From Sinomicrobium weinanense (lineage in GTDB: Bacteria > Bacteroidota > Bacteroidia > Flavobacteriales > Flavobacteriaceae), in contig NZ_JAHKRR010000003.1 of the NCBI RefSeq assembly GCF_018863395.1, forward strand, positions 310,001 through 374,000: DNA of 64,000 nucleotides. The letters are read 5' to 3'. How positions within the stretch are numbered: position 1 is the first letter of the stretch; each line of letters opens with the position of its first letter. Of the stretch, positions 31,672 through 55,447 are shown in pieces. The notes beneath the pieces were generated by a model that saw only the letters and a list, made by a program, of their open reading frames with translations, was not told where the DNA came from and made no database searches. The position numbers were made by a program, and so were the translations under genes.

Positions 31672-31672
31672 C
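31656..31672. repeat. attL, 17-bp direct repeat
   Basis: ATTCCCACCCGAGGTAC, covering the T-arm and acceptor 3' strand of tRNA-Leu. The identical sequence occurs at 55431-55447; flanking bases differ on both sides. Confidence 0.93.
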
Positions 31673-31675
31673 GGA

Positions 31676-31709
31676 AAAACCCTGTGAAACAGATGTTTCA
31701 CAGGGTTTT
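31676..31709 (+). terminator. Element-borne terminator for tRNA-Leu
   Basis: A 15-bp perfect stem (AAAACCCTGTGAAAC with GTTTCACAGGGTTTT, loop AGAT) followed by TTATTTTTT. It lies just inside attL, so it belongs to the element and replaces the chromosomal terminator now displaced to 55451. Confidence 0.9.
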
Positions 31710-31719
31710 TTATTTTTTG

Positions 31720-31791: not shown

Positions 31792-32496
31792 TCAAATTTG
31801 AAGCGTGATTAACGAAAAATTATCTTTTGCCTCATTCATTAAACGTTTTTCGATTCGGTTAAACGCCTCTTCATAGGAATCAGAAGTGTTCAGTATTTGC
31901 TGCAAGTGAATGCCATTATATAAATCGTGTACACCATCAGAACAGATTAGGAATAAATCTGAATCATCAATCTTCTCTTGGGTAAACACATCGATTTGAG
32001 ACAGATAAACATCTCCCTGAACTGACCGTGTTACAACGTGTTTATACTTATTTATTTGCTTTAGATCCTTGATTGTACCATTGCTAATAACTTCATCAAT
32101 AAGCGTATGAGAGGTTGATTCTCGCACAAGTTTATTGTTTTTGTAATAAAAGATTTTCACATCCCCAACCCAAAAACAAGTAGCTTGATTTGATTGTAAA
32201 ATCACTCCGCCAACTGTTGCTCCAACTTTTGTATTGTTCTTTTTCCTTAGTTGTCTTATTGAAAGATTTGCTTTATTTATTGCCTTTTGTATTTGTGCTT
32301 CATCAATAATTTCAACTGTCGATAAGTATGTCAAGATACTCTCAGCAACTATTTTAGCAGCTATTTCTCCATGCTCATAGCCTCCCATACCATCAACAAT
32401 AAGATGAAGATAGGTTTCAGGATTTATGTTCCGAACCAAAACAAAATCCTGATTGACCTCTCTTTTTCCTCTATGTGAAAAAACTATTGATTTCAT
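31792..32496 (-). CDS. PP2C-family protein phosphatase of the defence operon
   Basis: A 234-aa Ser/Thr phosphatase. The metal-binding residues of the PPM family are visible: NQD at 15-17, VDGMGGYEHGE around D35, CSDGVHDLY, and DNFSLI near the end in place of the common DNxT. It has no membrane segment. Its start overlaps the stop of the ATPase gene by 4 bp, and it is last in the eight-gene operon. The likely substrate is the two-kinase protein encoded four genes upstream or its targets, making a reversible phosphorylation switch. That is inference from the pairing. Confidence 0.9.
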   Translation of the reverse strand: MKSIVFSHRGKREVNQDFVLVRNINPETYLHLIVDGMGGYEHGEIAAKIVAESILTYLSTVEIIDEAQIQKAINKANLSIRQLRKKNNTKVGATVGGVILQSNQATCFWVGDVKIFYYKNNKLVRESTSHTLIDEVISNGTIKDLKQINKYKHVVTRSVQGDVYLSQIDVFTQEKIDDSDLFLICSDGVHDLYNGIHLQQILNTSDSYEEAFNRIEKRLMNEAKDNFSLITLQI

Positions 32497-35400
32497 TTAC
32501 CTCCATTAGCTTGAATTGTTCCACCACCATGCTTAGTTACTCTTGGTCTCGTAAATACTTTCACGGGCTTTGTTGTTATACTCTTTTCAGTAGCCTTAGT
32601 AGCCCATAAAAACCCTTCCCCAGGAACCAATGCACCCATATCTACTGCTCCTAGCATTGATAATTGGGTGATGGATTTTTGAATATGCTTTAACCATTGA
32701 GGGCTATTAAACTTATGCAGTAATACCACTGAGCTCAATTCTATTATCTCGTTTGGCAAACTCGGAGGATCTTGACTGGCAATCATTATACTTACTCCCT
32801 TATGTCTCATTTCACGAATGGCAGTTACAATATTCCCAGTTAGGTCTTTATTGTCCATATATTTATGTGCTTCATCAAATACAATAAACTTATTGAAGTG
32901 TGCTCCGTTCACATTTTTGACGGCTGAGAATATATTAAGCATTATTACAAATAATCCTAAAGCTTCATCTTTGACAATAAACTCATCTCTTAAATCCACG
33001 ATAATTAATCTTCCTGGCTTAAGGGCATCTCTCAACATGAAGTTGTCATCTATATATTCTCTTGCGAAGCTTAATTTTTGTCGTGCGAGTGCTTTTTGTG
33101 AATTTGATAAGAGTTCAGAAGTTTCAACACTTTGGGTAACCCCATCAATAGTTATATTTCTTCTGTGCTCTTTCATTATGGCTTTTAATTGTTTAATGTA
33201 TGCTGAATCATTTCCTATTGCACCAAGTATGAATAGCCAATCCTGAACATTAAGTTCTTTTGAATTGAATGCAATCGGTAAAACTTCAATTGATGGATAT
33301 TCAACCTGTCTTTCTTCAATTTTGTCCTTTGGCGTAAGGATAATTACATCCTCAATATTATCAGGGTTAGCACCGTATCTTTCTTTCAGTTTATTGAGTT
33401 CAGCTTCCTTGTCATTTGGGTAAATCATAGAAGTGAATTCAGGCTCATAATCCATGCTTTCGCTATAATGGAATATTACACCTGCAAGTGGAGCTGGTAG
33501 CTCATTTACCTTGCTAAATTGCTTTAATACCATTTCAGAAATAGTCCCGATAGTATAACTTTTACCACCACCTTGAACACCAAACAAACTAATTGTATTT
33601 GTTTCACTCAAATCAATAGCAATCTTTTTTCCATGGAGACTTTCTCCTAAAATTCCGAACTGACTACTTGGTGAGCTCCTACCTATAAGAATATCATATT
33701 CAGGAGTTATATGTTCTACATCAGTTGATATATCAGTAGAAATAGGTGTATCTATATGGTCAACCATTTCAGGCTCTTCAAACTCCTCCTCAGCCTTTAA
33801 TTCTGTTTCCTTTATTTTTACTAATTCCTCACCAACTTCTTTCACCTCTTCAATTGGTTGTTCAGGATCTTTCGATTTGAATTTCTGAATGAATGGTTTC
33901 AATGTCGTATTCGTTCTTATAACCGAACTTAACTCAGCATCTAACTCATTATCTTCAAGTTTTCTTGTGTTAAGGTCTGAATCCGGATCAAGTATTTCTT
34001 CAATTAATCTTCCTCCAAATGTGAAGAAAGCTAAATCGTGATCTAGAATTTCTTTATGATGCTTTCTTTGAGCTGTGAAGTTAAATATTAAACCCAGTTG
34101 ATTGAATTTAAGTTTAAATCCTGCATCTAGGTATTGTAAAAACGCTAAATAGCTTTCGTATGCGTTTTCATTCAAATATTCGTAACGATACGCCCTTTCG
34201 ATATAAAAGCTTAGTAAAGACTTTAATTCCTTATTCTTAATCTCTCTATCAAGCCTGTCCATAGACAAGTGATATTCCGGATCAAAATGCATCCTTAACG
34301 CCTCAATAGTATTCTCAATCTGCTCTCTCATTTTAACTTTCAACTCATTGCTTTCAGTTTCTCCAAGAGATTTTCTGCATTTTATTTCGATAACGGAAAT
34401 GGATATTTCTCTTTTATCCGGGTTGATTGACACCAATAAATTATCTGCTCTACTTTTGCTTTCAGAAGGATCGAAAAGGTTTTGATGCAAGTCAATTGGA
34501 ATCAAAAAGGCTTCCTCCAATAATCCTTTCTTTTCTAAAACTCTTTTGGTAAATGCAGAACCAATGACCTCAAAAGCTTTATTTTTTGATGAGTTTAGCT
34601 GTAGTACCAAAGAACTACTTACTGCTCTGAGGTCTTCAAGAAGTATTTTTATTTTCTTCTCGTCTTCTGCATTATAAATATCTAGGTTGAACTCTTCAAA
34701 ATGTGGTCCAAGCAATCCTAATACTTCTGAAGTTGGTCTGGTAGTCAAATAAGATGAAATTCCGAACAATTCCTCTCCAGGGACGTAATCAAGTAGGAAT
34801 GGAATTTTACCGTCTTTTGATGGTTGATCAAATATTTGTGGCCCAAGGTTTTTATCAAACGTAATTACCCAATCGGAATAATCATGTAAATGAGTTAACA
34901 GAACTTTATCCCTATCATTAAGCCTTAACTGGGTAGAAGGAATGGATTCTGTGTGTTTTGATGCCAATGCGCCTGCAACGAATGACTGAATGTTGTCAAA
35001 TAAATCTATACCTAATTTTCCACTGCCTTGATAACCAATGGAAAGTCTATTCCCTCGAATGAACCTATTCCACTTTATTTGGTTGCCATTCTCATCAACG
35101 GTTACAGTTGATTCAGTTAATAATCCGTTCAGATAGAAATTTCTATCATTTTTATATGGTTTGATGAGTTCGACTGTAATGGGAAATGGGTCTACCAAGA
35201 AACTTAAATGTGCGGTAAACTTTGAAGGTACTTTTAAGTAATCAGAAGTGCTATTGATAGAGAAACGCAGCTTAGGGAACAACCTGTTTTTTGAAGGCTG
35301 CGAAAACACTTCCGCCTCTTCTGATACATTGAACTCCGGATTGATTAAATTTCTTAAAGCTTCACCATGCTCAATTATCCTATCGTCACCTTTAAATATT

Positions 35401-37892
35401 CTGACTTCGTATTTAATAGCTTTAAACGCTTTATCTTTTTCTAGTTCTACAAATGCATCTGCAAATACGGAAGCATCTCCTGAATTGATTAGATTGATAA
35501 TTAGTTTGTCGGTATAAGGGTGTTGAGCCAGGTAGTTTTTTATGTGCCTAATCACTAGCTTTTGACTAATGTCTGTTTCTACATAATTATCCTTAGTTAC
35601 ATTGAATAATTGACGGAAATAGTGTTTCATTTGTCTTGAAACCGAAGTCATTCCGTTTTTTGATTCGTCTGCCAAAACATTCAGGTACAATCCCCATCCA
35701 TAGGCAAGCTCGCCTGAATAATGATAATTTTTAAACGAAGTTGGTTCAACTAAAACAAGAGGGTTGTTTTCAGGAGATAATTGGCCTTCAAAGAAGAATT
35801 CTAAATTCTTGGCCCAAGATTCTTTATGCCCAGGATAATCTTTGGTCTTTTGCTCCCAATTGTTAAACAACTCCATTAATTCAATGATCCATGCTAGTCT
35901 CAAAGGATGTAATGGAGAAAGCAATAAAGCTTCTGTGTGTTGGCCATCAGGTAGCTTAGTTCTAATTCTTGCAACATCAAGTATTTGAAGTTCAGTTAGA
36001 AAATATTGAATCTTACTTTTTTCCTCCTCATTTAATTCATCGCTAGACACCTGGTTTTTCAAAGATGTTGTCCATTCTGTCAGTTTCTGAACATAGTCTT
36101 TGATTATTTGATAGTGATTAAATAAATCTGCCGTTTCAAAAACACCGTCTCCATTCTCATTGGATTTCTGAATTGCAGTAAAAATTTCCTTACGCAATTT
36201 CAAAACAGGGTTAGGAATGATACTTGTTAAATCGCTTTCAACAAACTTTATGGATTCAAAACCAACCGCCGCGGAATTACTTTTCAGAGATCCCTTCACA
36301 TAACCAAAGGAAGTGCAATTCTCTAAAAACTTGTTTTCTATACTTCTTAACTTTGAAGAAAGATTGATTTGATAATTATGTCGTTCCGAGTAATTGATAT
36401 AGAAAGTTGATGTATGCTTAGTAATATCATTAAGCCAAACATTTGAGTTTTCCGAAGCTTCCGGGATATCAGCTTCATCTCCCAATTTTATCTTTTCGAT
36501 TCGGTATTTGAAATACGCTTGAAGAACATTGTTAAGCTTGTCTTTACGTTGGTTTTCATCTCTTTCAGTCATCTCTTCAACCACGAAGTCAAAATCGTCT
36601 GAATCACAAGTTAACTTGTATGGAAAAGCACTTTTGGACATATTTTCATCTGCCTTCACAGCTTCTTCCCATGCTTTCTGAATTTTCAGATCTTTAAAGT
36701 CGTCATTTGCATTCAAAACGTTCCCATGCTCATCTTCGGCTAATACTTTGAAGAAATAAGAACCTTCCTCAATCATGTTTGAATTCAAATCTACCGTTGC
36801 TTCACGGTATGGTCGCTTTGAGGCAGTATTCTTTAATTTTCGTAATACAAAAACTTCTTCTCCAGTTCCTCCATCCACTACCATTAAAATCACCTTAAAA
36901 TATTTCAGATCGGAAATATCTTTAGGGTTGGGATTAGTACTGAATCGAATACGAACTTTTGTAGTCTTGTTTTCTTCAACATGCAATACTTTTCTGCCTT
37001 CTTCTACTTTGAAATTGTTAGACTTAATTTCTTCTATAAGCAACTTAATATGTGAGAAATCAAGATCCGGAATTTTCCAATTGGCAAAATTTAGATGCTG
37101 ATAACTTTTAAATACCAATCGACATATTTCATCCGCATTTCGAGCTTCATTTTCCTGTTTAATGAAGTTCACAATCTCTTTTTGCAACGTATTTGGCTCC
37201 AATGGTAACTCAGCAACCCTATCGTACAAAGGCTTACTAAATGAACTTAATAGTTCGGTACTTTCAAGGTTGAAATTCAATCTTGAACGAACCTTTTCAG
37301 GTTCCTCAATTAGTTTTTCATCAGGCAGGAGATTGAGTATGTATATATTATTTCCAACCGCTTCATTAGAATATCCTCCTTCTTCAAGCGCGAGTAAATA
37401 CTTGATAATACTAACAGTACTTATTGTCGTTGAATTAAGGTATTGAAGTATTTCACTTTCTATTAAGTGAGCATAGTCATCCGGAATTTTAGCAATTAAT
37501 TCCTCTTTTAGTTTATGTTCTATACCTTCCAAGGAAATCTCCTTAAAGGTGGCATTACCATAAGAATCTTCTGCTGCTGTTCTGCTGTTTGAAGGAATCA
37601 ACACTAATAAAGGAGCTTCTTGTTTGTTTCTAAGCTCTACAAGCTTTGTAGCAGAAATAAATTTATCACTTCCATTACTTTCTTCCGAAACAATAAACGT
37701 ATCAATAGCAGGGTATTCATCATGAATAATATCCCACAAAAATTCTAATTCATTTAATCCAAGACCTGTAATTTTCATACAATGTCCTGGTATTGCATTG
37801 CCAAAATCTGCCTTGTGTAGTTCAAGGACCAGGTCAATGATTCTTTTGTAATACGTGTTTATAGTCCTTACCATTTCCATTTCACTGAACAT
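32493..37892 (-). CDS. 1799-aa HerA-like ATPase with embedded nuclease-like motif (MAD8-like)
   Basis: A giant protein. The C-terminal third is a HerA/FtsK-type P-loop ATPase: Walker A GVQGGGKSYT near residue 1442, Walker B FIVFDEAHKYM near 1672, and a sensor-like MIASQDPPSLP. About residue 1155-1175 the string RADNLLVSI...ISVIEIKCRK has the D...ExK spacing of a PD-(D/E)xK nuclease. The first 1000 residues are unrecognised. An acidic linker (about 1330-1400) joins the parts. It overlaps its neighbours by 11 and 4 bp. Position and domain match the large ATP-binding subunit of MADS as I recall it; it may translocate on or cut unmethylated DNA. Confidence 0.8.
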   Translation of the reverse strand: MFSEMEMVRTINTYYKRIIDLVLELHKADFGNAIPGHCMKITGLGLNELEFLWDIIHDEYPAIDTFIVSEESNGSDKFISATKLVELRNKQEAPLLVLIPSNSRTAAEDSYGNATFKEISLEGIEHKLKEELIAKIPDDYAHLIESEILQYLNSTTISTVSIIKYLLALEEGGYSNEAVGNNIYILNLLPDEKLIEEPEKVRSRLNFNLESTELLSSFSKPLYDRVAELPLEPNTLQKEIVNFIKQENEARNADEICRLVFKSYQHLNFANWKIPDLDFSHIKLLIEEIKSNNFKVEEGRKVLHVEENKTTKVRIRFSTNPNPKDISDLKYFKVILMVVDGGTGEEVFVLRKLKNTASKRPYREATVDLNSNMIEEGSYFFKVLAEDEHGNVLNANDDFKDLKIQKAWEEAVKADENMSKSAFPYKLTCDSDDFDFVVEEMTERDENQRKDKLNNVLQAYFKYRIEKIKLGDEADIPEASENSNVWLNDITKHTSTFYINYSERHNYQINLSSKLRSIENKFLENCTSFGYVKGSLKSNSAAVGFESIKFVESDLTSIIPNPVLKLRKEIFTAIQKSNENGDGVFETADLFNHYQIIKDYVQKLTEWTTSLKNQVSSDELNEEEKSKIQYFLTELQILDVARIRTKLPDGQHTEALLLSPLHPLRLAWIIELMELFNNWEQKTKDYPGHKESWAKNLEFFFEGQLSPENNPLVLVEPTSFKNYHYSGELAYGWGLYLNVLADESKNGMTSVSRQMKHYFRQLFNVTKDNYVETDISQKLVIRHIKNYLAQHPYTDKLIINLINSGDASVFADAFVELEKDKAFKAIKYEVRIFKGDDRIIEHGEALRNLINPEFNVSEEAEVFSQPSKNRLFPKLRFSINSTSDYLKVPSKFTAHLSFLVDPFPITVELIKPYKNDRNFYLNGLLTESTVTVDENGNQIKWNRFIRGNRLSIGYQGSGKLGIDLFDNIQSFVAGALASKHTESIPSTQLRLNDRDKVLLTHLHDYSDWVITFDKNLGPQIFDQPSKDGKIPFLLDYVPGEELFGISSYLTTRPTSEVLGLLGPHFEEFNLDIYNAEDEKKIKILLEDLRAVSSSLVLQLNSSKNKAFEVIGSAFTKRVLEKKGLLEEAFLIPIDLHQNLFDPSESKSRADNLLVSINPDKREISISVIEIKCRKSLGETESNELKVKMREQIENTIEALRMHFDPEYHLSMDRLDREIKNKELKSLLSFYIERAYRYEYLNENAYESYLAFLQYLDAGFKLKFNQLGLIFNFTAQRKHHKEILDHDLAFFTFGGRLIEEILDPDSDLNTRKLEDNELDAELSSVIRTNTTLKPFIQKFKSKDPEQPIEEVKEVGEELVKIKETELKAEEEFEEPEMVDHIDTPISTDISTDVEHITPEYDILIGRSSPSSQFGILGESLHGKKIAIDLSETNTISLFGVQGGGKSYTIGTISEMVLKQFSKVNELPAPLAGVIFHYSESMDYEPEFTSMIYPNDKEAELNKLKERYGANPDNIEDVIILTPKDKIEERQVEYPSIEVLPIAFNSKELNVQDWLFILGAIGNDSAYIKQLKAIMKEHRRNITIDGVTQSVETSELLSNSQKALARQKLSFAREYIDDNFMLRDALKPGRLIIVDLRDEFIVKDEALGLFVIMLNIFSAVKNVNGAHFNKFIVFDEAHKYMDNKDLTGNIVTAIREMRHKGVSIMIASQDPPSLPNEIIELSSVVLLHKFNSPQWLKHIQKSITQLSMLGAVDMGALVPGEGFLWATKATEKSITTKPVKVFTRPRVTKHGGGTIQANGGK

Positions 37893-39444
37893 TTAATTCG
37901 TAACGTGGTCTAATTCTTTGAAGGATATAAGCATCACTCAAATCGTTATAAAAACCTATCTGACGAAGCTTCATTTTAAACGCCTCCATATTTTCCTTAA
38001 AAGCTAAATGAGTTTGTAAATCTGCATCTGCAAATCGCTCTTCATTTAGACCATTTATAACCAAACCATATCGTTCTCTAATATTTGACACCAATTCTTC
38101 AATAGATAAACTTCTAGTCTGGAATTGGTTATTCCTTGACTCAAGCACCAATATTTGAACAAGGGTTTCAAGCAATCTAGTCCCTAAAACGAATCGCCTT
38201 GGATGCTTTCTGCTTCTTCCTTGCGCCATAAAACCTCTCTCATTGTTCTTTTGAGATAAGTTATCAATGAGCTGAATATGAAACCTGTACTGGTAAGTAC
38301 CTCTTGCTTTTAAAATAAGCTCAATATACCTGTCAAAATAAGTGTCCTCATATTTCACCATGTCCTCAATTAAGAGTTTATCCTCCTCCTCTAATGAGTT
38401 GTATAGGTTATCCCATTGCGTTTCAAAATAGATTTCAAAATCCGTAGGCTTCTTCTGTAAAATCTTTAAAGCTTTCGTAAGATTTTCAGAATTGGTCTTA
38501 TCCAATTTCAACCTACGCAAAGCAGCATTCACTTGAAATGTCGATTTTACATAATCATAAATCTTATTCGTCAAACTTTCAGCATCAGCGGCAGCTAATC
38601 GGGAAACTTTACTTGCGTAATTATCAGTTGCATCCAATACTATGTTCCAATCATCAATTATTTCAATATTTCCTGACTCGACCATCTTTGGCAAAAAATG
38701 AACCAGTTTTTGGATGTATAGCGATAAGTGGAAAGAAATAATTGTTTTTAAGTAATCAATCAATACGTTTCTAGGGATCAACCTTTTGTACACCAACAAC
38801 CTTCTTACATCATCGCAAAACAGCTCTGCCTGCTTTTGCAGAATCGGGTGGATTTGATTCAACGTAGAATTGCTTTCCAAAAAGCCAGGTTTCACTTTTT
38901 TGATGATATGAAGTAATCCCAAGCTATCTACATCCAATCCGTTACCATTATTGATCTTGCTGGTAGTTTGATCCCATCCTTCCATTAAGAAGTTTTTCAA
39001 ATCTTCCTTAACCGTAGGATTAGCCCCTAACATTAAATAAACTTGGTCCGCAGTGTTATAGTCCCTGGTATTAGCAGCATTTCTTACACGGTAACTTTCA
39101 AGATGGATAGGTCTTAATGAGGATATTTTCTCTTTATCTACATTACCTCTGAATACCATGTTTACCAGATTACTACGCATCCACAATTCCGCAGCATCAG
39201 GATTATCCTTAAACCCTTTAAGAGAGCCTTCTTCTTCAAGTTTTGAAAAGACTTTTTTAAGGGTGTCTAATTCGATAAATGTACTGCCACTGGAACGAGC
39301 TCTTTGCTTTGGTCTAATACCGTTGTACTTTAATAGCATGAATAAATTCACCAAAGTATTATCTATGTTTACCGCCTTTGCATCTGCGGTAAAAATTAGT
39401 TCATTTCTGAACAAACTCTCTTCTTTATTTAATTTTATGGCCAT
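37882..39444 (-). CDS. 520-aa helical protein of the defence operon (MAD7-like)
   Basis: No fold is recognisable by eye. The protein is mostly helical, soluble, and rich in Lys, Asn and Leu, without cysteine clusters or membrane segments. It has a basic patch RSRKHPRRFVLGTRLLE near residue 410 that could contact nucleic acid or a partner. It lies 2 bp after the kinase gene and overlaps the ATPase gene by 11 bp, so it is made in step with both. By position it corresponds to the uncharacterised seventh component of MADS, from memory of published gene names. Confidence 0.65.
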   Translation of the reverse strand: MAIKLNKEESLFRNELIFTADAKAVNIDNTLVNLFMLLKYNGIRPKQRARSSGSTFIELDTLKKVFSKLEEEGSLKGFKDNPDAAELWMRSNLVNMVFRGNVDKEKISSLRPIHLESYRVRNAANTRDYNTADQVYLMLGANPTVKEDLKNFLMEGWDQTTSKINNGNGLDVDSLGLLHIIKKVKPGFLESNSTLNQIHPILQKQAELFCDDVRRLLVYKRLIPRNVLIDYLKTIISFHLSLYIQKLVHFLPKMVESGNIEIIDDWNIVLDATDNYASKVSRLAAADAESLTNKIYDYVKSTFQVNAALRRLKLDKTNSENLTKALKILQKKPTDFEIYFETQWDNLYNSLEEEDKLLIEDMVKYEDTYFDRYIELILKARGTYQYRFHIQLIDNLSQKNNERGFMAQGRSRKHPRRFVLGTRLLETLVQILVLESRNNQFQTRSLSIEELVSNIRERYGLVINGLNEERFADADLQTHLAFKENMEAFKMKLRQIGFYNDLSDAYILQRIRPRYELNVQ

Positions 39445-39446
39445 AG

Positions 39447-42400
39447 TTATATCTCCATTGGTTGAATTTCAAGACGGCTTTGTTCGTTTTTACTGATTTT
39501 AAAAAACTCCATGTTATCCTTCGTTACAACCACCTCTTTATAGTTCAAATTCTCCAAAAGATTCTTGAAGATGATGAGTTCTACAAATCTCCCTCTCAGG
39601 TCATTTAAAGAAGGACTAAAACCTTGCTGAATGAAGTATAGCATTTCATAGAGGTCTAAGGATATGATAAGCTTTATATGTTTTTGTTCTTTGTGTCTAA
39701 AGGTTAAACTGTCCGGTTCGTATTCCAGGTATTTCACCAAATGGTCAGTTCTATTCACAAACAACTCAAAATCATTCAAGTTGAATAATCTGAACGACTT
39801 ACTGAATGGATCTCTTATTTCAGTTGAGGATAACACCAAATAGCTCTGGTCGATTCCCGGATTGTCACAACCTTCATTTAAAGAAATTGCTCTTGAAATA
39901 CTTGCTTTGGTATGATTGTCGGTATCTCCTTCTTCCAACACTTTTACAAATTTAAAAACCGAGTGATACGGCAATCGTAGCAGATAAGAAGGAAGCTTTA
40001 AAGTTTCTTCTTCTCCGTTATCTTTCACATGACCATTCTGAATACTTAAAAGTCCTGCTTTGCCTTCAAAATACTGATGACGAACAAAGTTCTTTTGAAT
40101 GATTTTTATGCGAGCAATCTCATTATCATCTTGCTCATAAGTCGGCTTTATTCTTTCAATTGAGTTGAACGTATCTAAAAGTGTAACGTTACGTTCGGCA
40201 AATTCTAAGTAATGTTTGGATTGAAGTTTTCCGAAGAACAAATCTCTATCCAAATCCGGAATAGCCACTTCACCAATATCAGTTTCTCTTAACAGTTTTA
40301 TTAGCCTATCTTGATTACCCGAATCGCCTACTAAAGGATTGGTAATGTTAAAATAATAATACTGCCAGTAATGCTCCGGAGTATTTTGATTTTGTTGGAA
40401 TAATCCCTCAATATCTTTACAATCATGATCACGAGTAAGGGTATAAGCTATAAATGAGCGTAAATCTCTCATAGTGATATGCAATTCTCTTTTAAGACTT
40501 GCAGTTCTCATAAGCCACTCCATTCTTGTAATTACTTCCTCACCAGTTGCTGTGTCATTGAACGAATCCACATTGTATTTTATGAAACACTGATTTACCA
40601 AGGAACAGCCTTCACATTTGCTCCAAAATTTCTTCTGGGTAAGTGCTTTTACTTGTTGTCTGAATAAACTAGGCTCGTTATCTGTTTGTGCTGTAACAGA
40701 ACGTAAGTTTAGGTTGATAATCATTAACCCTCCCGGTAATTCATGATGTCCTTCGTTGTAAAAGTAATTTTCAATATGGTCGTGCAGCGTTTTGTGTTTT
40801 TCTGTGATTTTTAGAAACTCTACCAAACGACCTTCATTTATTGCTATAATTCTACCTTCCTTAGCATTGTTATAGTTCTCAATATCTTCAAAAGGTTGAA
40901 AGAAACTCTCCAAGACTTCATTATTTGCTCTTTCATTTTCATCCTGTGAACCATCATAATTACTCTCGAAGGCAACTCCATTTATCTTGAAACGAGCTCC
41001 GTTTTTATGTCCAAAACGCTCTAATTGGCTAATGTTTTTATCTTCCTCAATTTTTCGGATAAAGGCGGTTTTACCATCACCGGCATTTCCGGTAATTATT
41101 AATAATTTGAACTGCCCATCCAGGATTGCAGGGATCAAATGGTTGTCCAATTTAGTCGGAGTATAGGTTAATTCATTGTAAACATTGGTATCGAAGTTTG
41201 CTCTCGTTCCTGAATTACCATGTTTAGACTGACTGTAAAGCGAATTGATGTATTTAACAAAATCGTCTTGTTTTTCAATTTCAACAGTTGGTTCTGCCTT
41301 TTCTTTCTTACTCTCTAAAATTCCTTCTTCTCCAATTTTCAGAAGAGCATCCAACATTTCTAGAGCATTTTTAAAACGGTTAACTCCTCTCGGATCGATG
41401 GCTTTTAACAAAAATGCTTCAAATGAAGCAGAAAGTCGGTCTTCTATGCTTTTAGGAGCAACTGGGGCTTTGCTAATTAATGGCAATTTACCAGGAGCCC
41501 AAGGATATTGCTTACAAATAAGCTCATAAAGGGTAATGCCCAAAGCAAAGGTGTCTGCTGATTTATCCCAATTTACTTTATAATTACCTGTGATTAAATC
41601 AGGAGCTAAATAAGGATTGGTTCCTACAAAATCCTTATTGTCCTCGGCAAATGAAGCCACATTAAAGTCAATCAAAACAAAGCGTTCTTGGTTGTCCCAA
41701 ATAATATTTTGAGGTTTAATATCTCTATGCAAAATTGGTTTTGGCATGTTTTGCATAGAAACCAATGCTTCCAAAATATCTTTCGCTACTTGATATATGC
41801 GGTAAATAGGAAGACGAGCATCAGTACGAGTATACATACTTAAGTTTTCACCATCTAGGTATTCCATTACCGTAAAAAATTGACCGGTAGAGGCAATATC
41901 ATTCCAGACAAATTTTACAATATTTTGATGATTGAGGTCTTTTAAAGCACTGTACTCATCAATAACAGATTGTGCGTTTACGCTTTCATGGAAAAGTTTC
42001 ATGGTAAAGTATCTATCTTGCAAGCTGTGTTTTACCTTAAATACTTTAGAATAACCTCCTTTACCAAGAATTTCATGTATTACATATGCTCCAACACGGT
42101 CGCCTTCATCTAAATCATGTGCTTCCTTTTGTTGTGGAGCTTTTGAAGTGGTTGTTTTTGTCGGTTGTGGTTCGGTTTGTGACTCCTTTATTGCTTCATT
42201 GATGAAATTTTCCAGCTCCTCAATGTTGTCGATTCGCTTTAATTCATCTGTTAATACTGTTTTTAGACAAAGTTGATCTAACCATTTTGGTAATGCTTTA
42301 TTGATATGACTCGGGAGTATATCCTCCGGAATTTGTCCTCCCAGTTTGTCTAATTCGAAAGGTGTTTTAAACGGTTCTTCCCCGGTAAAAAGCCAATATA

Positions 42401-43592
42401 TCAATACCCCAAGCGAATATATATCAGACGAACGAGAAGCATCACCTACGGTTAATTCTAAGGGATGGTAGGCAGAGGCATTCATCTCGTTAATAGTTGC
42501 CATTACCGTATAGCCCTGCTCATTGTGGTCGGTAAAATAAGATTTCCCGAAATTCCCTAAATACGCATATCCGCTGCTCATGTAGATATTGTCGGGATTG
42601 ATGTCTCTATGATATATATTCTCTTTATGAGCCTCTTTTAGGGCAGCCATTACATTTCGAAGGATACCTATCTTCTCCTGAAAAGTGTAGGTTTTGGAGC
42701 GAGCTTCCGCACGTAGCGAGTTTTCATCTAAAAAATCTGAAATCTCATAAAACAGATGGTTTTCTTCATCTATTTTAAACTCTACATTTAGAATGAATGG
42801 TTTGGCCTTGATTTTATGCAGCGCCTTGTATTGGTTTTTGATGGCCTCTTCTCGTTTGCGAAGTTCTTCAGGTGATAAACCTGATACCTGTAATGAAAAT
42901 TCTTTTACCCTTTTACGAATGGAAGAGGTAACGCCTTTTGGTTTTACCAGGTATTCTGTGAAATTAGGTTCTTGTAATAATACTTCGATAATTTCAAAGC
43001 CTTCTATTTCGCGTTTTTCATCCGGAGCCTTTTTACCTTGATTCCCGATCAAAAATTCCACAATATCATGTTGAATGTCGGCAATGTCATTATTTAGTTT
43101 TCCTATCTGGTTCGGATCTGTAAGATACTCAATAAGTTTTTTGTTGAGTTGAAAAGTGAGTTTACCTGCTTCCTGCCAAAACAGAGGTTCAAAGGAATTT
43201 GCATAGGAGAGAGTAACCATATTTTGAATCCATGCTTTGCCCCATGAATATTCTTTTTCTTTGAGTTTGGAAGCAAGAATGGCTGTTTTTTGGCGACCTG
43301 TTTTTAAAGGGTTGGGTTTTTGGCGATCATTTAAGTACCAGTAATTATCATCTCCTTCAATACGTCCTTTCCAATCTTTGTTTTCTATATTGTAAATGGC
43401 ATGCGGAGCCACCACAATAAGGTCGTATTCCCAGTATTGGGTACGGTTGTTACGTGGGTTGGTAGAAGCAATTTCTACATTGGGCACTAAGTAATAACTA
43501 TCCGGAAGGTTTACCTCTAAATAATCTAGCAAACGCTTTTCTCCGACATTCACGACCGATTCAAAATAGGGTGGTTTAATTATTTTTGCCAT
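39447..43592 (-). CDS. NERD-kinase-kinase-P-loop fusion protein (MAD6-like)
   Basis: A 1381-aa multidomain protein. Residues 10-130 form a NERD nuclease-like domain (D57 and E70-N-K72, in EYDLIVV and NIENKDWKG). A first kinase domain (about 260-465) has HRDINPDN near 329 but GNFG instead of DFG and no glycine loop, so it is probably a pseudokinase. A second kinase (about 500-770) is complete: GKGGYSKV, FTMKLF, HRDIKPQN near 622, DFN. Then comes a P-loop NTPase (GNAGDGKT near 838) and a long C-terminal part with a CEGC/C cluster. It overlaps the specificity gene by 13 bp. It is probably the sensor/effector hub of the operon. Confidence 0.85.
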   Translation of the reverse strand: MAKIIKPPYFESVVNVGEKRLLDYLEVNLPDSYYLVPNVEIASTNPRNNRTQYWEYDLIVVAPHAIYNIENKDWKGRIEGDDNYWYLNDRQKPNPLKTGRQKTAILASKLKEKEYSWGKAWIQNMVTLSYANSFEPLFWQEAGKLTFQLNKKLIEYLTDPNQIGKLNNDIADIQHDIVEFLIGNQGKKAPDEKREIEGFEIIEVLLQEPNFTEYLVKPKGVTSSIRKRVKEFSLQVSGLSPEELRKREEAIKNQYKALHKIKAKPFILNVEFKIDEENHLFYEISDFLDENSLRAEARSKTYTFQEKIGILRNVMAALKEAHKENIYHRDINPDNIYMSSGYAYLGNFGKSYFTDHNEQGYTVMATINEMNASAYHPLELTVGDASRSSDIYSLGVLIYWLFTGEEPFKTPFELDKLGGQIPEDILPSHINKALPKWLDQLCLKTVLTDELKRIDNIEELENFINEAIKESQTEPQPTKTTTSKAPQQKEAHDLDEGDRVGAYVIHEILGKGGYSKVFKVKHSLQDRYFTMKLFHESVNAQSVIDEYSALKDLNHQNIVKFVWNDIASTGQFFTVMEYLDGENLSMYTRTDARLPIYRIYQVAKDILEALVSMQNMPKPILHRDIKPQNIIWDNQERFVLIDFNVASFAEDNKDFVGTNPYLAPDLITGNYKVNWDKSADTFALGITLYELICKQYPWAPGKLPLISKAPVAPKSIEDRLSASFEAFLLKAIDPRGVNRFKNALEMLDALLKIGEEGILESKKEKAEPTVEIEKQDDFVKYINSLYSQSKHGNSGTRANFDTNVYNELTYTPTKLDNHLIPAILDGQFKLLIITGNAGDGKTAFIRKIEEDKNISQLERFGHKNGARFKINGVAFESNYDGSQDENERANNEVLESFFQPFEDIENYNNAKEGRIIAINEGRLVEFLKITEKHKTLHDHIENYFYNEGHHELPGGLMIINLNLRSVTAQTDNEPSLFRQQVKALTQKKFWSKCEGCSLVNQCFIKYNVDSFNDTATGEEVITRMEWLMRTASLKRELHITMRDLRSFIAYTLTRDHDCKDIEGLFQQNQNTPEHYWQYYYFNITNPLVGDSGNQDRLIKLLRETDIGEVAIPDLDRDLFFGKLQSKHYLEFAERNVTLLDTFNSIERIKPTYEQDDNEIARIKIIQKNFVRHQYFEGKAGLLSIQNGHVKDNGEEETLKLPSYLLRLPYHSVFKFVKVLEEGDTDNHTKASISRAISLNEGCDNPGIDQSYLVLSSTEIRDPFSKSFRLFNLNDFELFVNRTDHLVKYLEYEPDSLTFRHKEQKHIKLIISLDLYEMLYFIQQGFSPSLNDLRGRFVELIIFKNLLENLNYKEVVVTKDNMEFFKISKNEQSRLEIQPMEI

Positions 43593-44932
43593 GATTCAAT
43601 CTCTTTTTCTACCAGGTCGATTGCTTTGAGTTCTTTTCGATGACTTTCAGAGGATTTTTCGATATAACCTTCTATTTTTTCAAATACCCAGTCTAATTTA
43701 TCATTTGGTTTAGGAAACTTAACTTGTAAAAGTCTGTCAGGAGTAATAAAGGGTATCATAGAACCAGTTGCCATTTTTTGTAACAATTTTATACCTGATG
43801 AACTTTTTAGAAATGCAAACAGCCAGTATGAGATTCTTAAATCATCAGTTGAAATTCTAATCACATGGTCAGATAAACATGCTCCATGTAAAATGTCATC
43901 AGCAATGAATACATTACCCAAAATACCTCCATCTGTCGTTCCTGATTTATATAGAAGTAATGTTCCTTTTTCCACCTTATAATCATTGATATTCTTAACT
44001 CCTCTAGGAGAAAGCCAACGATAATATTTCTTAATAAACTTAGTGAGTTCAGCTCCAGTTAAAAATGGATGCCCATTGTTTTTTGAAAGATATATGTGCT
44101 TAAATAATGGAGGAGCAAAACATTTTGTTGCTACACTACCAATAGTCATTTGTTCTTGGAAACTACTTTCAATTTTATCACATTCCAAGTTATTATTGTA
44201 TGATGCCCAGCTAAAACTTAAATCAGATACTTTTTTGGAGAATACTTTAGTAAAACCTTCAACCTTATATTCTTTCTCAAAATAACTTGTAGCCTCCCTC
44301 AACAACTTATTCGCTTCCACACGAAGATTTGAAGCCTCTACAATAAGGTTGTGTATTTCTTGTTGTTTAGATTCGGGGAGAATGGGGATTGGTAAGTTTT
44401 CAATGTGATGTGGTTCGATGTGTTGAATTACGGCCCCATAAGTACCTTGTGTTAGTAATGCATATCCATACTTTGAGGACAAGTAAGAATAAATATAGCC
44501 AGAAGGTAATTGTCCGTTTGGCACAACTCTTAAAATATGTTGTGAAGCTGTTTTGTTTACAAAGTCTGCGTTAGCATAAACAGTATTTCCAATTGTTCCA
44601 GAACATGAAATTAATGTCCATCCTTCCTTAATCCATAACGATTCAACATTTTTGGATAGTTTCTTGGAAATATACTTAAGACCATCGAAACTAGACTTTA
44701 GCATATCAGAACTCCCCATAAAAGGTATCCCCAATTCTTCATTGCTTACATAGTATCTTTTAAACCTAATCCCATTAAACAATTCAGATGTTACTTGATT
44801 TAAACTTTTATATCCTAAAGGAGCGTTTTTAATCAATTTATTGTATACTCGCCCCTCACTCATGTGGAACGAGGAGTCTAACCTACATCCACCTTCGATA
44901 AGCCAGCTATATTTTGCATTTCCTACTTTCAT
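43580..44932 (-). CDS. Type I-like specificity subunit (HsdS/MAD5-like)
   Basis: A 450-aa DNA specificity protein with two target-recognition halves. Each half ends in a helical spacer: LPIPILPESKQQEIHNLIVEA in the middle and KFPKPNDKLDWVFEKIEGYI near the end. QHILRVVPNGQLPSGYIYSYL and DHVIRISTDDLRISYWLF mark the TRD cores. It overlaps the methylase stop by 4 bp. With the methylase it would define the modified sequence. No HsdR translocase gene exists in the island. Confidence 0.88.
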   Translation of the reverse strand: MKVGNAKYSWLIEGGCRLDSSFHMSEGRVYNKLIKNAPLGYKSLNQVTSELFNGIRFKRYYVSNEELGIPFMGSSDMLKSSFDGLKYISKKLSKNVESLWIKEGWTLISCSGTIGNTVYANADFVNKTASQHILRVVPNGQLPSGYIYSYLSSKYGYALLTQGTYGAVIQHIEPHHIENLPIPILPESKQQEIHNLIVEASNLRVEANKLLREATSYFEKEYKVEGFTKVFSKKVSDLSFSWASYNNNLECDKIESSFQEQMTIGSVATKCFAPPLFKHIYLSKNNGHPFLTGAELTKFIKKYYRWLSPRGVKNINDYKVEKGTLLLYKSGTTDGGILGNVFIADDILHGACLSDHVIRISTDDLRISYWLFAFLKSSSGIKLLQKMATGSMIPFITPDRLLQVKFPKPNDKLDWVFEKIEGYIEKSSESHRKELKAIDLVEKEIESWQK

Positions 44933-46971
44933 AGCTTTTCACCCTTTACAAACTGAAAATAAGCTTTTGTGATTTTTGGAAGGTCATCATCCAATTGCTT
45001 TAACTTTTCTCTTCTTGTTTTCACCTCTTTTGAACCATCCTTTTTGTAGTTGATATATTTTGTTTCAACATCAAAAAGTAATTCCGCACCGTCTTCATCA
45101 CGCAAGTAAATCGGGTTTCCTCTTCGGTCTTTACCAAGTTTTTCAGCAATAGCCATAAATACATCGTAATCTTCGGTACTGTCTTGGGCTAGTTGGTGTT
45201 CTTCTTCGGTTTTCTTCTGTAAAAACAACAGAGAGGCTTGTACACCTACTTGTGGCAAGAAGGCTTCCACGGCTAAGTCTACCGAAGCAAGTATTTTAAA
45301 CTTGTCTAAAATCCATTCTCTTACAGGGAGGGTATTGGGATTGCCAAGTATTCCATCGGGCAATACTATCGCCATTTTACCTCCGGGCTTTAAAAAATTG
45401 TAACATGCTTCAATAAACAGTACCTCGGGTGCATCGCTATATTCTCCCAGTTTGTAGCGCAAAGTTCCATCTGAGTGATAAATAATTTCTTTGTCTACTT
45501 TTACTTTAGCTCCGAAAGGGGGATTGGTAAATACTATGTCAAACTTCCCAATGACGTTACTGGTATAAGTATTTTCTAAGTCTTTCATCTCTCGCAGACT
45601 TTTATTAATGGAAGCATTGATTTTTTCAATTTCTTCCAGATGCTCCCATTTAGGATAGGCCAAAGAATTTACATGAAATATGTTGGCATGTCCATCTCCT
45701 GCCATTACCATGTTCATACGGGCAGCTTTTTTAAGATCGGGATCAAAGTCAAAACCAAAGATACTTCGTTCAGCATAGTGCCTTACTCGTTCATTAACTT
45801 CAAAAGAGTTGAACTTTTCTGCCAAAAGCGGTCCGTCTAAATCAGGATAAAGTTTCTGTGCTATTTGCTTACGCACATGGTCTAACACCATTACCAAGAA
45901 ACCTCCCGAACCGCAAGCCGGGTCCAGCACCCGGTAATTTTCGTTTGGGTTAAGCATTTCTACCATAGCTTTTATGATATTTCTTGGTGTGAAAAACTGT
46001 CCGGCTTCTTGCTTGAGGGTATTACTTACAATGGTTTCATAGGCCATTCCCTTCACGTCCACGGAGGCATCAAGGAATGAGTATTTGGCTAATTCACCTG
46101 CAATAAAGGCTAATCCTTTATCAGTAAGGCCAATGGCTTCATTACCGTCAAAAACCTCAGAAAAAACTGAATCTGATTTTAGCTCTTCAAACAAACCTTT
46201 AATTCTGTCTGCAACAGCTTTTCTTCCATCTTCGGTGTTTTGCTCTTTTACACCCACCCAAAACTTTCTACGATAGCTTTCTCCTTTTTCAGCACATATA
46301 AATCTTCGCTTTTCATCGTAGAGCTTACAGAAGATAAGATTGAGCAACTGCCAAAAGGCATCTTTTTTTCGACCTTCATTCCCATAGATATAATCATGCG
46401 AACGCTTAAATACTTTGATTAATGAATCATTGGCAGGTTTTCTACTGCTAGAACGGTCCGCACGATCAAGATCGTCCAAAGTTTCACCTTCGCCGGGAAA
46501 ATCGGATAAGTCCACAAATTCGTAATCATAACCCAGTGCGTCTTCTTCTTTTTGAAGAAAATGATAGCTAGAGCCGTTTGCCCATAATCCAAACTCACAA
46601 CTCTCTACAGCTCCCATGGCATTTTCAAGGGTGGCCGCCAGTCCTTTCTTCTTGTCGGTTTCTTTTATTTTATCGTCCTGAACAATACAGATACGGATGA
46701 TGTGTTTCTGTTCGTGAGGTTTACCTTTCTCGAAAACAGCTAACTCTATTTTTTGTTTTTTAGTTCTACTGGTATCAGGATCCGTATATTCAATTTTGAA
46801 ATCCCTTTCCATATCGTCCAAGTCAAAACCATATTCTTCATTGAGCATAATGATTACGGACTGAAGGTTGGATTCCTGGGCTTTTATCTTTTTTACTTCA
46901 CCTGTAAGGGTACATATTAGTTGGTTGTCTTCTAAAACTATTTCGTTCAGGTTTTTTGTTTGAGTTAGCAT
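44929..46971 (-). CDS. N6-adenine DNA methylase (HsdM/MAD2-like)
   Basis: A 680-aa type I-like adenine methyltransferase. The SAM motif DPACGSGGFLV is near residue 349 and the catalytic NPPFG near 482. The first 150 residues resemble the N-terminal domain of type I restriction subunits (IELAVFEKGKPHEQK), and a helical HsdM N-domain precedes the catalytic part. It begins 4 bp after the nucleotidyltransferase gene. The modification would mark host DNA as self. Longer than ordinary HsdM (about 500 aa) because of the extra N-terminal domain. Confidence 0.93.
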   Translation of the reverse strand: MLTQTKNLNEIVLEDNQLICTLTGEVKKIKAQESNLQSVIIMLNEEYGFDLDDMERDFKIEYTDPDTSRTKKQKIELAVFEKGKPHEQKHIIRICIVQDDKIKETDKKKGLAATLENAMGAVESCEFGLWANGSSYHFLQKEEDALGYDYEFVDLSDFPGEGETLDDLDRADRSSSRKPANDSLIKVFKRSHDYIYGNEGRKKDAFWQLLNLIFCKLYDEKRRFICAEKGESYRRKFWVGVKEQNTEDGRKAVADRIKGLFEELKSDSVFSEVFDGNEAIGLTDKGLAFIAGELAKYSFLDASVDVKGMAYETIVSNTLKQEAGQFFTPRNIIKAMVEMLNPNENYRVLDPACGSGGFLVMVLDHVRKQIAQKLYPDLDGPLLAEKFNSFEVNERVRHYAERSIFGFDFDPDLKKAARMNMVMAGDGHANIFHVNSLAYPKWEHLEEIEKINASINKSLREMKDLENTYTSNVIGKFDIVFTNPPFGAKVKVDKEIIYHSDGTLRYKLGEYSDAPEVLFIEACYNFLKPGGKMAIVLPDGILGNPNTLPVREWILDKFKILASVDLAVEAFLPQVGVQASLLFLQKKTEEEHQLAQDSTEDYDVFMAIAEKLGKDRRGNPIYLRDEDGAELLFDVETKYINYKKDGSKEVKTRREKLKQLDDDLPKITKAYFQFVKGEKL

Positions 46972-46975
46972 TTTG

Positions 46976-47818
46976 TTACGTGGTTAGTTGAACGGTTATA
47001 TTTTTTAAGCTTTTTAAAACCTCATCGTAGTTCATAAGCTTATGAGTTTCTAATATTTGGTTTACAAGGATGCTTTCCTCCTTTTTATCTATTTGATCTA
47101 TTAGGATTTGATTAATACATGTTTTGGTCTCCGTATGATTTTTCAATATCTGATTCAAATCAATCCCCAGTAATGTGGCTCCTCCCTTTAGTATGGTATG
47201 ATCTTCGGTATATATTTCTTCAAAATATTCTAAGGATCTGTCTCTGTATATTTCCAGATAGTTATTAAGTATAAAACCAATATCGTCTGCGTCTTTGTTA
47301 GTTTTATGGTACCGGTCTTTCCAGGCAACAATTTTTAACAGAAAAACACCCGACAAGGATGCTACTTGTATATCTATTTCATTATCTATCCCCACTTTTA
47401 AAGATGTTTCATCTACGGCAGAAAATCCTAAAACAGACATAGCAAATTCCTCATCAGGCGGCCAAAATATTTTACTGTCTTCTTTCATTATCTCTCCAAA
47501 TGGAACAATATCTACCTGAAAAGAATCGAGATAGAAAAAACGTTGCTTTTGATTAGGATCTTTAGAAAAATTTGGAAGTTTTTCTATTTCTTTTTCTACA
47601 AAGTCATACCGACTCCATTCGTTTATGGTTATAGCAATATCCAGATCATGAGTTAAACGACCAGAACTTTCATTATGAATTTCCATAACTATGTCTCTTG
47701 CAGTTGCACCAATTACAAAGAAGCGTATTCCTTTATCACTAAAAAATCTTGTTAATTCTTTGAGAATAGGTTTAAGTAATGGATGATTAAAATTGTCACT
47801 TGATATTTTGTAGCTCAT
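46976..47818 (-). CDS. AbiEii-like nucleotidyltransferase
   Basis: A 280-aa protein of the nucleotidyltransferase fold. The ATG at 47818 replaces an upstream TTG. The active-site signature is VIGATARDIV followed by THDLDIAI, with a third acidic residue in FQVDIVPFG. The later LLKIVAWKDRYHKTNKDADDIGFIL fits AbiEii-type toxins, which block growth by nucleotidylating tRNA or other targets. The upstream gene overlaps it by 23 bp and looks like the cognate AbiEi. The pair heads the defence operon rather than standing alone. Confidence 0.82.
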   Translation of the reverse strand: MSYKISSDNFNHPLLKPILKELTRFFSDKGIRFFVIGATARDIVMEIHNESSGRLTHDLDIAITINEWSRYDFVEKEIEKLPNFSKDPNQKQRFFYLDSFQVDIVPFGEIMKEDSKIFWPPDEEFAMSVLGFSAVDETSLKVGIDNEIDIQVASLSGVFLLKIVAWKDRYHKTNKDADDIGFILNNYLEIYRDRSLEYFEEIYTEDHTILKGGATLLGIDLNQILKNHTETKTCINQILIDQIDKKEESILVNQILETHKLMNYDEVLKSLKNITVQLTT

Positions 47819-48815
47819 TATCAAATATCTGATTAGCTATTTCTATGTTTCTGCCATATCCACTATTAATCAAATCTGTATAAATTAATAATACTGGCAC
47901 AATATTTTCCTCACTATTACTGTTCTTCCAGAATTTATTCAACACTTCTACATTTCCATTTTTATCAGGCACTAGTTTTAGTGATTTTGCTATCTCCGGA
48001 AGTTCATTATTACTATAAATTGTATAATTTTCAGGTCTTAGGTTTTTACTAAGTATGGCTCCTCCTGGTTCGCCACCCCATAAAATTTCTCCATTAAATT
48101 GGGTTAAGTCTATGTTTTTCCAATTTTTTGAAGATTCATTATCAATAAATTTCATTTTATTTCTCAAAATACGTGGTCTTAATACAGTAGAATACTCAAC
48201 TAACCACCTTTCAAGAAGATCTTTTTTATTTTTTAGAACTCTTTTTTCTTTTGTTCTAAGCAAATAGTTAAGCTCCTCAAGCTCAGACATCACATTGCTA
48301 ACAGAACCAATAGAAACATCAACACAATATGCTATTTCTCTATAAGAATGTTGTAAGTTAATCGGGTTACTCAACAGATGAAATATGATCTTTATTCCTG
48401 CTTCCTGAAATGCTCGTGATTGGTTGGTTTTATGTCTTACTCTTCTTTTTTGCCCCTCAATATAAATTATCAAATCATTATTTTTAATAAATGTGTTCCC
48501 TGCCACATCTATATAATTAAATGCTCTATTTTTCAATTCATTAGCAGCATTTTTAGATATATAATCTGAAATTAAAACTATTGGCCTATTACTGCTTTTT
48601 TTTAATTCTTCCAATTGAGACAACACCAACCCTTGATTCGAAGTTCGCATAGAAGCCTTTGCTTCAACAATAAATTGTATATCTCCAATACTTAATATTG
48701 CGTCATATCTACCTCTGGAACTTTCAATATCAATAGGAATATTGATTAATTTTTCCAGGTTAGACACTGCTTCATATATAAAATCATTATTTCGATACAT
48801 TATTTTTTTGTTCAT
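47796..48815 (-). CDS. AbiEi-like antitoxin/regulator with endonuclease-fold N-terminus
   Basis: About 339 aa from the ATG at 48815; an ATG at 48800 is equally possible, and the ATG at 48845 lies at or before the predicted transcription start. The N-terminal part has the pattern RGRYDAILSIGDIQFIVEAK, a PD-(D/E)xK-like core. A winged helix follows (SYREIAYCVDVSIGSVSNVM), then the AbiEi C-terminal part with WGGEPGGAIL. AbiEi proteins repress their own promoter through inverted repeats; such repeats lie at the predicted start site. It overlaps the nucleotidyltransferase gene and is first in the operon. Confidence 0.8.
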   Translation of the reverse strand: MNKKIMYRNNDFIYEAVSNLEKLINIPIDIESSRGRYDAILSIGDIQFIVEAKASMRTSNQGLVLSQLEELKKSSNRPIVLISDYISKNAANELKNRAFNYIDVAGNTFIKNNDLIIYIEGQKRRVRHKTNQSRAFQEAGIKIIFHLLSNPINLQHSYREIAYCVDVSIGSVSNVMSELEELNYLLRTKEKRVLKNKKDLLERWLVEYSTVLRPRILRNKMKFIDNESSKNWKNIDLTQFNGEILWGGEPGGAILSKNLRPENYTIYSNNELPEIAKSLKLVPDKNGNVEVLNKFWKNSNSEENIVPVLLIYTDLINSGYGRNIEIANQIFDNELQNIK

Positions 48816-48825
48816 TTTTTTTATT

Positions 48826-48844
48826 TGTTCAGTGACAATGAACA
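48826..48844. promoter_or_regulatory. Inverted-repeat operator TGTTCA-N7-TGAACA
   Basis: A perfect 6-7-6 inverted repeat at the predicted transcription start of the defence operon. More half-sites of GTTCA/TGAAC lie at 48810, 48856, 48906 and 48933. The arrangement fits cooperative autorepression by the AbiEi-like protein. Confidence 0.6.
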
Positions 48845-48846
48845 TT

Positions 48847-48878
48847 CAAATTTATTGAACAAAAATTTGATAAACAAA
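48847..48878 (-). promoter_or_regulatory. Promoter of the eight-gene defence operon
   Basis: On the minus strand TTTG (48875-48878), a 20-nt spacer and TAAATTTG (48847-48854) match the Bacteroidota consensus exactly. Transcription would start near 48840, so translation must begin at 48815 or 48800. No other promoter of this quality was noticed inside the operon. Confidence 0.7.
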
Positions 48879-55430: not shown

Positions 55431-55447
55431 ATTCCCACCCGAGGTAC
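55431..55447. repeat. attR, 17-bp direct repeat
   Basis: Identical to attL at 31656-31672. It is followed at once by the displaced chromosomal terminator. Confidence 0.93.

Follow-up and report, generated by a model that had tools for sequence, protein, structure and literature searches.

The 64,000 nucleotide (nt) stretch of the Sinomicrobium weinanense genome analyzed here (contig NZ_JAHKRR010000003.1, positions 310,001 to 374,000; hereafter the window) carries an eight-gene operon related to the methylation-associated defence system (MADS; Maestri et al., 2024, Cell Host Microbe). A preliminary description of this DNA had proposed a single leftward operon, and all eight open reading frames (ORFs) were found on the minus strand between positions 31792 and 48845, neighbors being separated by, or overlapping over, 2 to 29 bases. 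Taken from the coordinates, the junctions from the first to the last gene are an overlap of 29, a gap of 4, overlaps of 4 and 13, a gap of 2, and overlaps of 11 and 4. The genes are, in order of transcription:

47796-48845, minus strand: AbiEi-like regulator (AbiEi_2), first gene; Pfam AbiEi_2, 81.7 bits (cut-off 21)
46976-47824, minus strand: AbiEii-like nucleotidyltransferase, an optional occupant of the regulator slot; Pfam AbiEii, 29.7 bits (cut-off 22.5)
44929-46971, minus strand: mad2, N6-adenine DNA methylase; NCBIfam MADS2, Pfam N6_Mtase over cut-off
43580-44932, minus strand: mad5, specificity (S) subunit; NCBIfam MADS5, Pfam Methylase_S over cut-off
39447-43592, minus strand: mad6, NERD nuclease-like domain, apparent pseudokinase, active-looking Ser/Thr kinase and SspF/DndF-like P-loop part; NCBIfam MADS6
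37882-39444, minus strand: mad7, 520 aa, DndG/SspG-like; NCBIfam MADS7 over cut-off
32493-37892, minus strand: mad8, 1799 aa, DndH/SspH-like, with a predicted PD-(D/E)XK motif followed by a HerA-type ATPase; NCBIfam MADS8
31792-32496, minus strand: PP2C-type Ser/Thr phosphatase, last gene, overlapping mad8 by 4 nt; Pfam PP2C_2, 54.6 bits (cut-off 24)

The AbiEi-like ORF has a conserved Met codon at 48798-48800, and position 48815 corresponds to an internal MNKK start. Terminator-like hairpins lie upstream (49022-49050) and downstream (31674-31711) of the operon, in a window scan whose yield was little above background (14 found versus 10.6 expected).

MADS core and comparison with related systems

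The five MADS core proteins (MAD2, 5, 6, 7 and 8) all scored above the curated equivalog cut-offs of NCBIfam, with 846.6 bits for MADS2 (cut-off 720), 508.7 for MADS5 (400), 797.9 for MADS6 (460), 659.7 for MADS7 (410) and 239.8 for MADS8 (175), and PADLOC matches among the eight proteins include mad2, 5, 6, 7 and 8. The five genes stand in one operon in the order MAD2-5-6-7-8, which is kept in those related loci that reach that far, some of them with extra genes in between. With five family matches above cut-off, the MADS relationship and gene order put forward in the preliminary description are borne out. No NCBIfam match to MAD1 (a helix-turn-helix protein), MAD3 (an AAA ATPase) or MAD4 was obtained among the eight operon proteins, an absence that the description had not recorded. 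An assignment to canonical MADS was therefore rejected; because MAD1, MAD3 and MAD4 are missing while the five-gene core is present, the operon is a Bacteroidota variant of MADS.

A comparison locus on a Piscinibacter plasmid (L010) displays the eight-gene order, with MAD1, 2, 3, 4, 5 and 8 above NCBIfam cut-offs, and Mad6 (kinase) and Mad7 assigned through homology rather than by NCBIfam. The window and L010 share the order MAD2-5-6-7-8, but the window lacks MAD1, MAD3 and MAD4 and adds a PP2C gene and, in the regulator slot, an AbiE pair. No description of PP2C or AbiE as a MADS component was found in the portion of the literature covered, which does not extend to the original MADS paper and thus provides weak evidence of absence. 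Filing the operon under BREX type 2/Pgl was also rejected: residues 49-750 of Mad6 resemble PglW with a score of 237.7 bits, against a PglW cut-off of 990, and none of the eight operon proteins matched PglZ in Pfam or NCBIfam.

Related loci were collected by a scan with a Mad7 alignment across one genome per species, which returned 176 relatives. The best 80 of these 176, four plasmid loci and the window make up a set of 85 loci, in which genes were called with simple ORF rules and labeled with purpose-built profiles; short loci (L001-L006) were left out of counts. Across this set the Mad2 NPPF motif (residues 483-486) is kept in at least 95% of 68 rows, and the S subunit Mad5 shows 27-39% identity to the window's copy in the 18 loci compared, whereas neighboring genes reach up to 96%. 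From these family assignments, Mad2 and Mad5 would methylate host DNA at a site defined by the S subunit.

DndFGH-like proteins, tandem kinase-like domains and the phosphatase

The back half of the operon, comprising the C-terminal part of Mad6, Mad7 and Mad8, resembles DndFGH/SspFGH. Against PADLOC models, Mad6 residues 790-1381 match SspF (4.8e-25) and Mad7 matches SspG (1.6e-7), while residues 965-1171 of Mad8, within the N-terminal 1179 residues searched, match SspH weakly (E 6e-4), making homology weakest for Mad8. An AlphaFold2 model of Mad7, built from an alignment of 28 rows that all match the MADS7 family, has a mean pLDDT of 87, and its sole PDB match below 0.001 is DndG (7exx; E 3e-5, TM 0.48/0.55), the next match standing at 0.23. 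The model of Mad8 residues 985-1330 (pLDDT 82) yields weak fold matches, none of them below 0.001, with FokI the best (E 0.028) and McrC at rank 5 (E 0.12). Sequence searches of PDB with Mad7, AbiEii and Mad8 produced weak matches only. Residues D1150, E1169 and K1171 of Mad8 and its Walker residues K1444, D1673 and E1674 are invariant in 81 of 81 rows.

The domain assignments of the preliminary description were upheld at family level by Pfam, PADLOC and NCBIfam, with two qualifications. The Pfam HerA_C match of Mad8 falls below cut-off (17 versus 22 bits), so that its predicted HerA kinship relies on PADLOC HerA models, the conserved Walker residues and a weak PDB match to TdpA (E 0.0022). 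Mad6, in which Pfam NERD and Pkinase are over cut-off, had been described with two kinases; in the first of these, 78 of the 79 rows carry Asn instead of Asp in the DFG motif, and the exception, L010, retains that Asp but has Asn for the Asp of its HRD motif. Two active kinases were rejected on the basis of this substitution, and the first domain looks like a conserved pseudokinase. In the second kinase, K532, D624 and D642 are invariant (79 of 79 rows). D57 and K72 of the NERD domain are likewise invariant in the 79 rows, with E70 in 78 of 79, as are C993, C996, C1002 and C1058 further along the protein.

This architecture has parallels in Rakesh et al. (2024; PMC10853773), where NERD and a tandem of one inactive and one active kinase are described as fusion partners of DndF, with a Zn-chelating insert in some proteins, DndG as a triple winged helix-turn-helix protein, and DndH as a restriction endonuclease joined to HerA/FtsK. 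There, DndFGH is treated as a stand-alone system without an inbuilt modification module, and the main text contains no match to MADS, PP2C, phosphatase or AbiE. The window operon has SspF- and SspG-like parts, a more weakly matched SspH-like part and a predicted DndG fold in common with DndFGH/SspFGH, but would place its mark through a methylase with an S subunit; no DndABCDE/SspABCD phosphorothioation gene was matched among the eight operon proteins in Pfam or NCBIfam, the rest of the genome not having been searched for these. Within the literature covered, to which the original MADS paper does not belong, papers that name both MADS and Ssp/Dnd merely list or cite them, and a 2026 review gives the MADS restriction step as unknown (PMC12904381). 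The resemblance links the MADS and DndFGH literatures and turns that step into a testable proposal, a nuclease-translocase of the DndFGH type to which a kinase switch has been added. Mad6C, Mad7 and Mad8 would form a DndFGH-type complex in which Mad7 reads DNA, the HerA-like motor of Mad8 translocates it and the PD-(D/E)XK-like domain cuts it when unmethylated; Mad6 would add the NERD nuclease-like domain and the pseudokinase-kinase pair to a DndF-like core.

The PP2C gene had been regarded in the preliminary description as an extension of the MADS core, and its distribution agrees with this, being conserved rather than random: of the 81 homologous loci that extend 700 nt or more beyond mad8, 74 have PP2C after that gene, with a junction of -4 nt in 33 loci and of -1 nt in 28 (61 of the 74). 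Asp17, 35, 112, 187 and 225 are present in 74 of 74 rows, and PP2C is a stable part of the operon that keeps its catalytic Asp residues. PP2C is lacking after mad8 in seven loci: the Hymenobacter loci L007 and L072, the Chitinophagales locus L051, L016 from a Bacillus record, and L086, L090 and L010. The PP2C loci group into a single clade of 71 rows on the core tree, with L016 as the sole exception. An ordinary MADS with unrelated neighbors, to which defence islands have added PP2C and the regulator by chance, is highly improbable in light of this distribution, given the recurrent -4 or -1 nt junctions and the presence of PP2C in every row but L016 of that clade, even if the content of the regulator slot varies and L016 has the five-gene core alone.

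All seven loci without PP2C keep the active kinase residues, which implies that the kinase does not need this PP2C; for this reason, the phosphatase probably refines Mad6 kinase function rather than enabling it, and its target is likely the product of the Mad6 kinase. The kinase would gate the complex, and the phosphatase encoded by the overlapping gene would remove the phosphates, holding the system off or resetting it. The preliminary description had likewise supposed that phosphorylation would arm the response and PP2C reset it. The same facts, a stable overlapping PP2C with intact catalytic residues, would also fit a switch of the opposite direction, in which phosphorylation by Mad6 holds the restriction complex inactive until PP2C activates it upon infection. 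We consider this activator role doubtful, since the canonical locus L010 and six other loci have the kinase with no PP2C adjoining mad8, where an obligatory activator would be expected unless a phosphatase encoded elsewhere, for which no search was made, takes its place. Separately, PP2C matches part C of the PADLOC candidate system PDC-M21 (2.7e-9), and AbiEii weakly matches its part B (0.0067).

Regulator slot and candidate promoter operators

A slot gene was identified in 63 of the 85 loci. The slot holds AbiEi_2 with AbiEii in 26 loci, AbiEi_2 alone in 3, DUF6577 alone in 21, DUF6577 with a longer AbiEii in 2, an Xre-type helix-turn-helix gene in 10 and MAD1 in 1, with the remaining 22 classed as other, none or not covered. 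PADLOC sets a DUF6577 protein among AbiEi families (2.6e-59). One of the 21 DUF6577-alone loci (L046) looks degraded. The preliminary description was right that an upstream module extends the core, but the AbiE pair occupies it in only 26 of 85 loci, with other regulators found otherwise, and the pair was rejected as an invariant part of the operon. Nor is there support for a general role in which the pair, as a constant addition, would punish cells that lose the operon, as the three AbiEi_2-alone loci leave 27-95 nt between AbiEi and mad2, too little for an AbiEii gene, and 21 loci have the DUF6577 type of AbiEi alone. Both flanking modules, PP2C and the slot, thus extend the core as the description had it; the likeness to SspFGH/DndFGH and the exchange of regulator and operator had formed no part of it.

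On the core tree, of whose 77 rows 61 were scored, at least 12 slot changes are required (fewest changes of state, AbiEii gain and loss counted). Between the window and L011, identity is 88% in Mad2, 90% in Mad6, 96% in Mad7, 92% in Mad8 and 85% in PP2C, with 38% in Mad5, and the slot of L011 contains DUF6577 and no AbiE pair, so that the two loci display a recent slot swap.

Upstream of the window's AbiEi-like gene, the promoter region contains two elements:

48827-48843, minus strand: palindromic operator candidate GTTCA-N7-TGAAC at the operon promoter, with regulator binding predicted
48847-48878, minus strand: promoter-like elements of Bacteroidota type, TTTG (48875-48878) and TAAATTTG (48847-48854)

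We take the TTTG and TAAATTTG motifs to be Bacteroidota promoter elements; a sigma-70 scan of the window remained at background (69 found versus 63.1 expected). GTTCA-N7-TGAAC occurs upstream of AbiEi_2 in 17 of the 17 loci with at least 60 nt of upstream sequence (of 29 loci, 12 have less), and a TAnnTTTG box directly precedes it in 12 of the 14 loci with enough sequence. These upstream regions hold 4 or 5 half-sites, where mononucleotide shuffles give 0.1-0.3. From 200 nt beyond the start onward, none of the 29 loci contains a copy of the palindrome. DUF6577 genes are preceded by a different palindrome, present in 14 of 23 loci under a strict first pattern and in 21 of 23 in the relaxed form GGCA-N15 or N16-TGCC (at most 0.012 per locus in mononucleotide shuffles), and followed by AAGTTTTG in 16 of the 21. 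Both patterns were spotted by eye and then counted in the same loci, making the counts descriptive and the related loci non-independent. An outside check covered 17 AbiE pairs that are not near MADS and have sufficient sequence upstream; GTTCA-N4..10-TGAAC was found in 12 of them and not in the other 5.

Every AbiEi type comes with a promoter palindrome of its own, and on these grounds AbiEi is best read as an exchangeable operon repressor and AbiEii as an optional toxin. AbiEi would bind the promoter palindrome and keep operon expression low, while also holding AbiEii in check; autorepression by AbiEi has been published for other AbiE systems (PMC7319586, PMC3985639). The AbiE pair of the window resembles AbiE type IV toxin-antitoxin (TA) systems in its AbiEi_2 and AbiEii families, both above Pfam cut-off, and in the upstream palindrome, but differs in that it heads a long defence operon and the toxin gene is dispensable.

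In a rival role, close to the one suggested in the preliminary description, the pair would serve mainly as an addiction or abortive-infection TA system that stabilizes the element or acts when MADS fails, with regulation of MADS incidental. Residues G39, D60, D62, D105, K164 and D178 of AbiEii are each present in at least 25 of 26 rows, and AbiE is reported to stabilize plasmids (PMC3985639) and an integrative and conjugative element (PMC11062541). Relatives of the pair also stand away from MADS in the phylum, with AbiEii relatives detected in 21 of 247 genomes, the window's own included. AbiEi adjoins AbiEii in 15 of 17 AbiEii neighborhoods retrieved (in one of them with AbiEii in two pieces). 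We nevertheless rate a mainly TA role as unlikely: AbiEi occurs without AbiEii in 3 loci and the DUF6577 type alone in 21 of 85, the pair comes first in the operon with its palindrome at the shared promoter, and two type I restriction-modification operons likewise begin with relatives of it. The latter are two of the 15 pairs (L122 and L128), which head methylase operons with HsdM and HsdS by Pfam; no methylase adjoins the other 13 within the stretches retrieved, some of which are short. Identity of the window AbiEii to copies in the 8 MADS loci compared is 47-71%, versus 25-35% to copies elsewhere.

Further downstream in both L122 and L128, a long ORF reads by eye like HsdR, and L122 has a kinase-like gene after its S gene. 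A 187-aa gene lies between AbiEi and AbiEii in L058 (1103-1666).

Taken as a whole, we consider it reasonably probable that the operon is a Bacteroidota MADS variant with DndFGH-type restriction, a kinase/PP2C switch and an exchangeable AbiEi repressor. Several points weigh against this explanation. The Mad8 nuclease fold match is weak (FokI, E 0.028), as is its SspH match (6e-4), and kinase residues persist in all seven loci lacking PP2C. Motif I of AbiEii reads Gly-Ala, with D60xD62 kept, where the published motif is hG[G/S]...DhD (PMC3985639). The core tree (FastTree, 77 rows) is midpoint-rooted with long branches at its base, and the loci are mostly from Bacteroidota, with MADS of other phyla thinly sampled.

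A more elaborate scheme, in which MADS operons exchange complete control cartridges and AbiE acts as a two-stage tripwire, appears quite unlikely: removal of AbiEi would derepress the methylation/DndFGH machine and free AbiEii, which the Mad6 kinase and PP2C might also set by phosphorylation. MenT-type nucleotidyltransferase toxins are silenced through active-site phosphorylation, although by antitoxin-induced auto-phosphorylation without a kinase (PMC11375011).

The favored explanation, a MADS variant under an exchangeable repressor, departs from known MADS in its built-in phosphatase gene and in an exchangeable regulator gene with its own DNA switch. The related loci would thereby constitute a natural experiment on the safety of defence operons in new hosts, where the core stays, repressor-operator cartridges are swapped and PP2C is kept throughout one large clade.

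Probable integrative element and distribution of related loci

The end of the operon adjoins a tRNA-Leu gene, and the G+C content of the operon, 0.30-0.39 as compared with 0.42-0.51 to the left of 31 kb, identifies it as foreign DNA. The following features lie at or beyond its ends:

31656-31672, plus strand: attachment (att) repeat in the 3' end of tRNA-Leu (31590-31672); 17-bp exact repeat
51354-52543, minus strand: relaxase and NikA-like mobilization genes; Pfam Relaxase, NikA-like
54030-55271, minus strand: tyrosine integrase; Pfam Phage_integrase, Arm-DNA-bind_5
55431-55447, plus strand: second att repeat, at the other end of the element; 17-bp exact repeat

With its att repeats at tRNA-Leu and its integrase and mobilization genes, the region 31656-55447 is most likely an integrative mobilizable element that carries the operon as cargo. 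MAD7 was found in none of five same-genus genomes searched; the left flank is present in all five, the right flank is well matched in one only, and there partially, and no clean empty site was shown among them. MAD7 is also rare in the phylum, with matches in 6 of 395 genomes, of which one, the window's own, is over cut-off. A scan of viral contigs with the single Mad7 protein confirmed no relative.

The region just outside the second att repeat (55448-58845) has low G+C content and carries S41 peptidase and ECF sigma genes, and could represent another island inserted at this tRNA. In the same-genus genome G402, the tRNA-Leu region is partially matched at two places approximately 25 kb apart, which may point to a hotspot. 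tRNA genes were detected in 3 of the 60 related loci scanned; one, in Chitinophaga (L029), is a tRNA-Pro gene (17770-17844) located 79 nt past PP2C, and may indicate another copy in a tRNA-linked element. The Bacillus record (L016, 2408-16977) presents the five-gene MADS core, with no regulator or PP2C, next to a tyrosine recombinase-like gene, and its Mad7 is 82% identical to that of the window, reflecting either cross-phylum transfer or contamination.

The mad2 gene is split into two ORFs in L008 (7423-9434) and L079, possibly because it is broken or phase-variable or through sequencing error. Eleven Bacteroidales-type loci (L071, L074-L081, L083 and L084) have larger accessory genes between mad5 and mad6; the four insert proteins scanned comprise a Schlafen/AlbA_2 protein with HATPase (L079), a YhcG PDDEXK nuclease (L074), a WG-repeat protein (L078) and a CpXC protein (L077).

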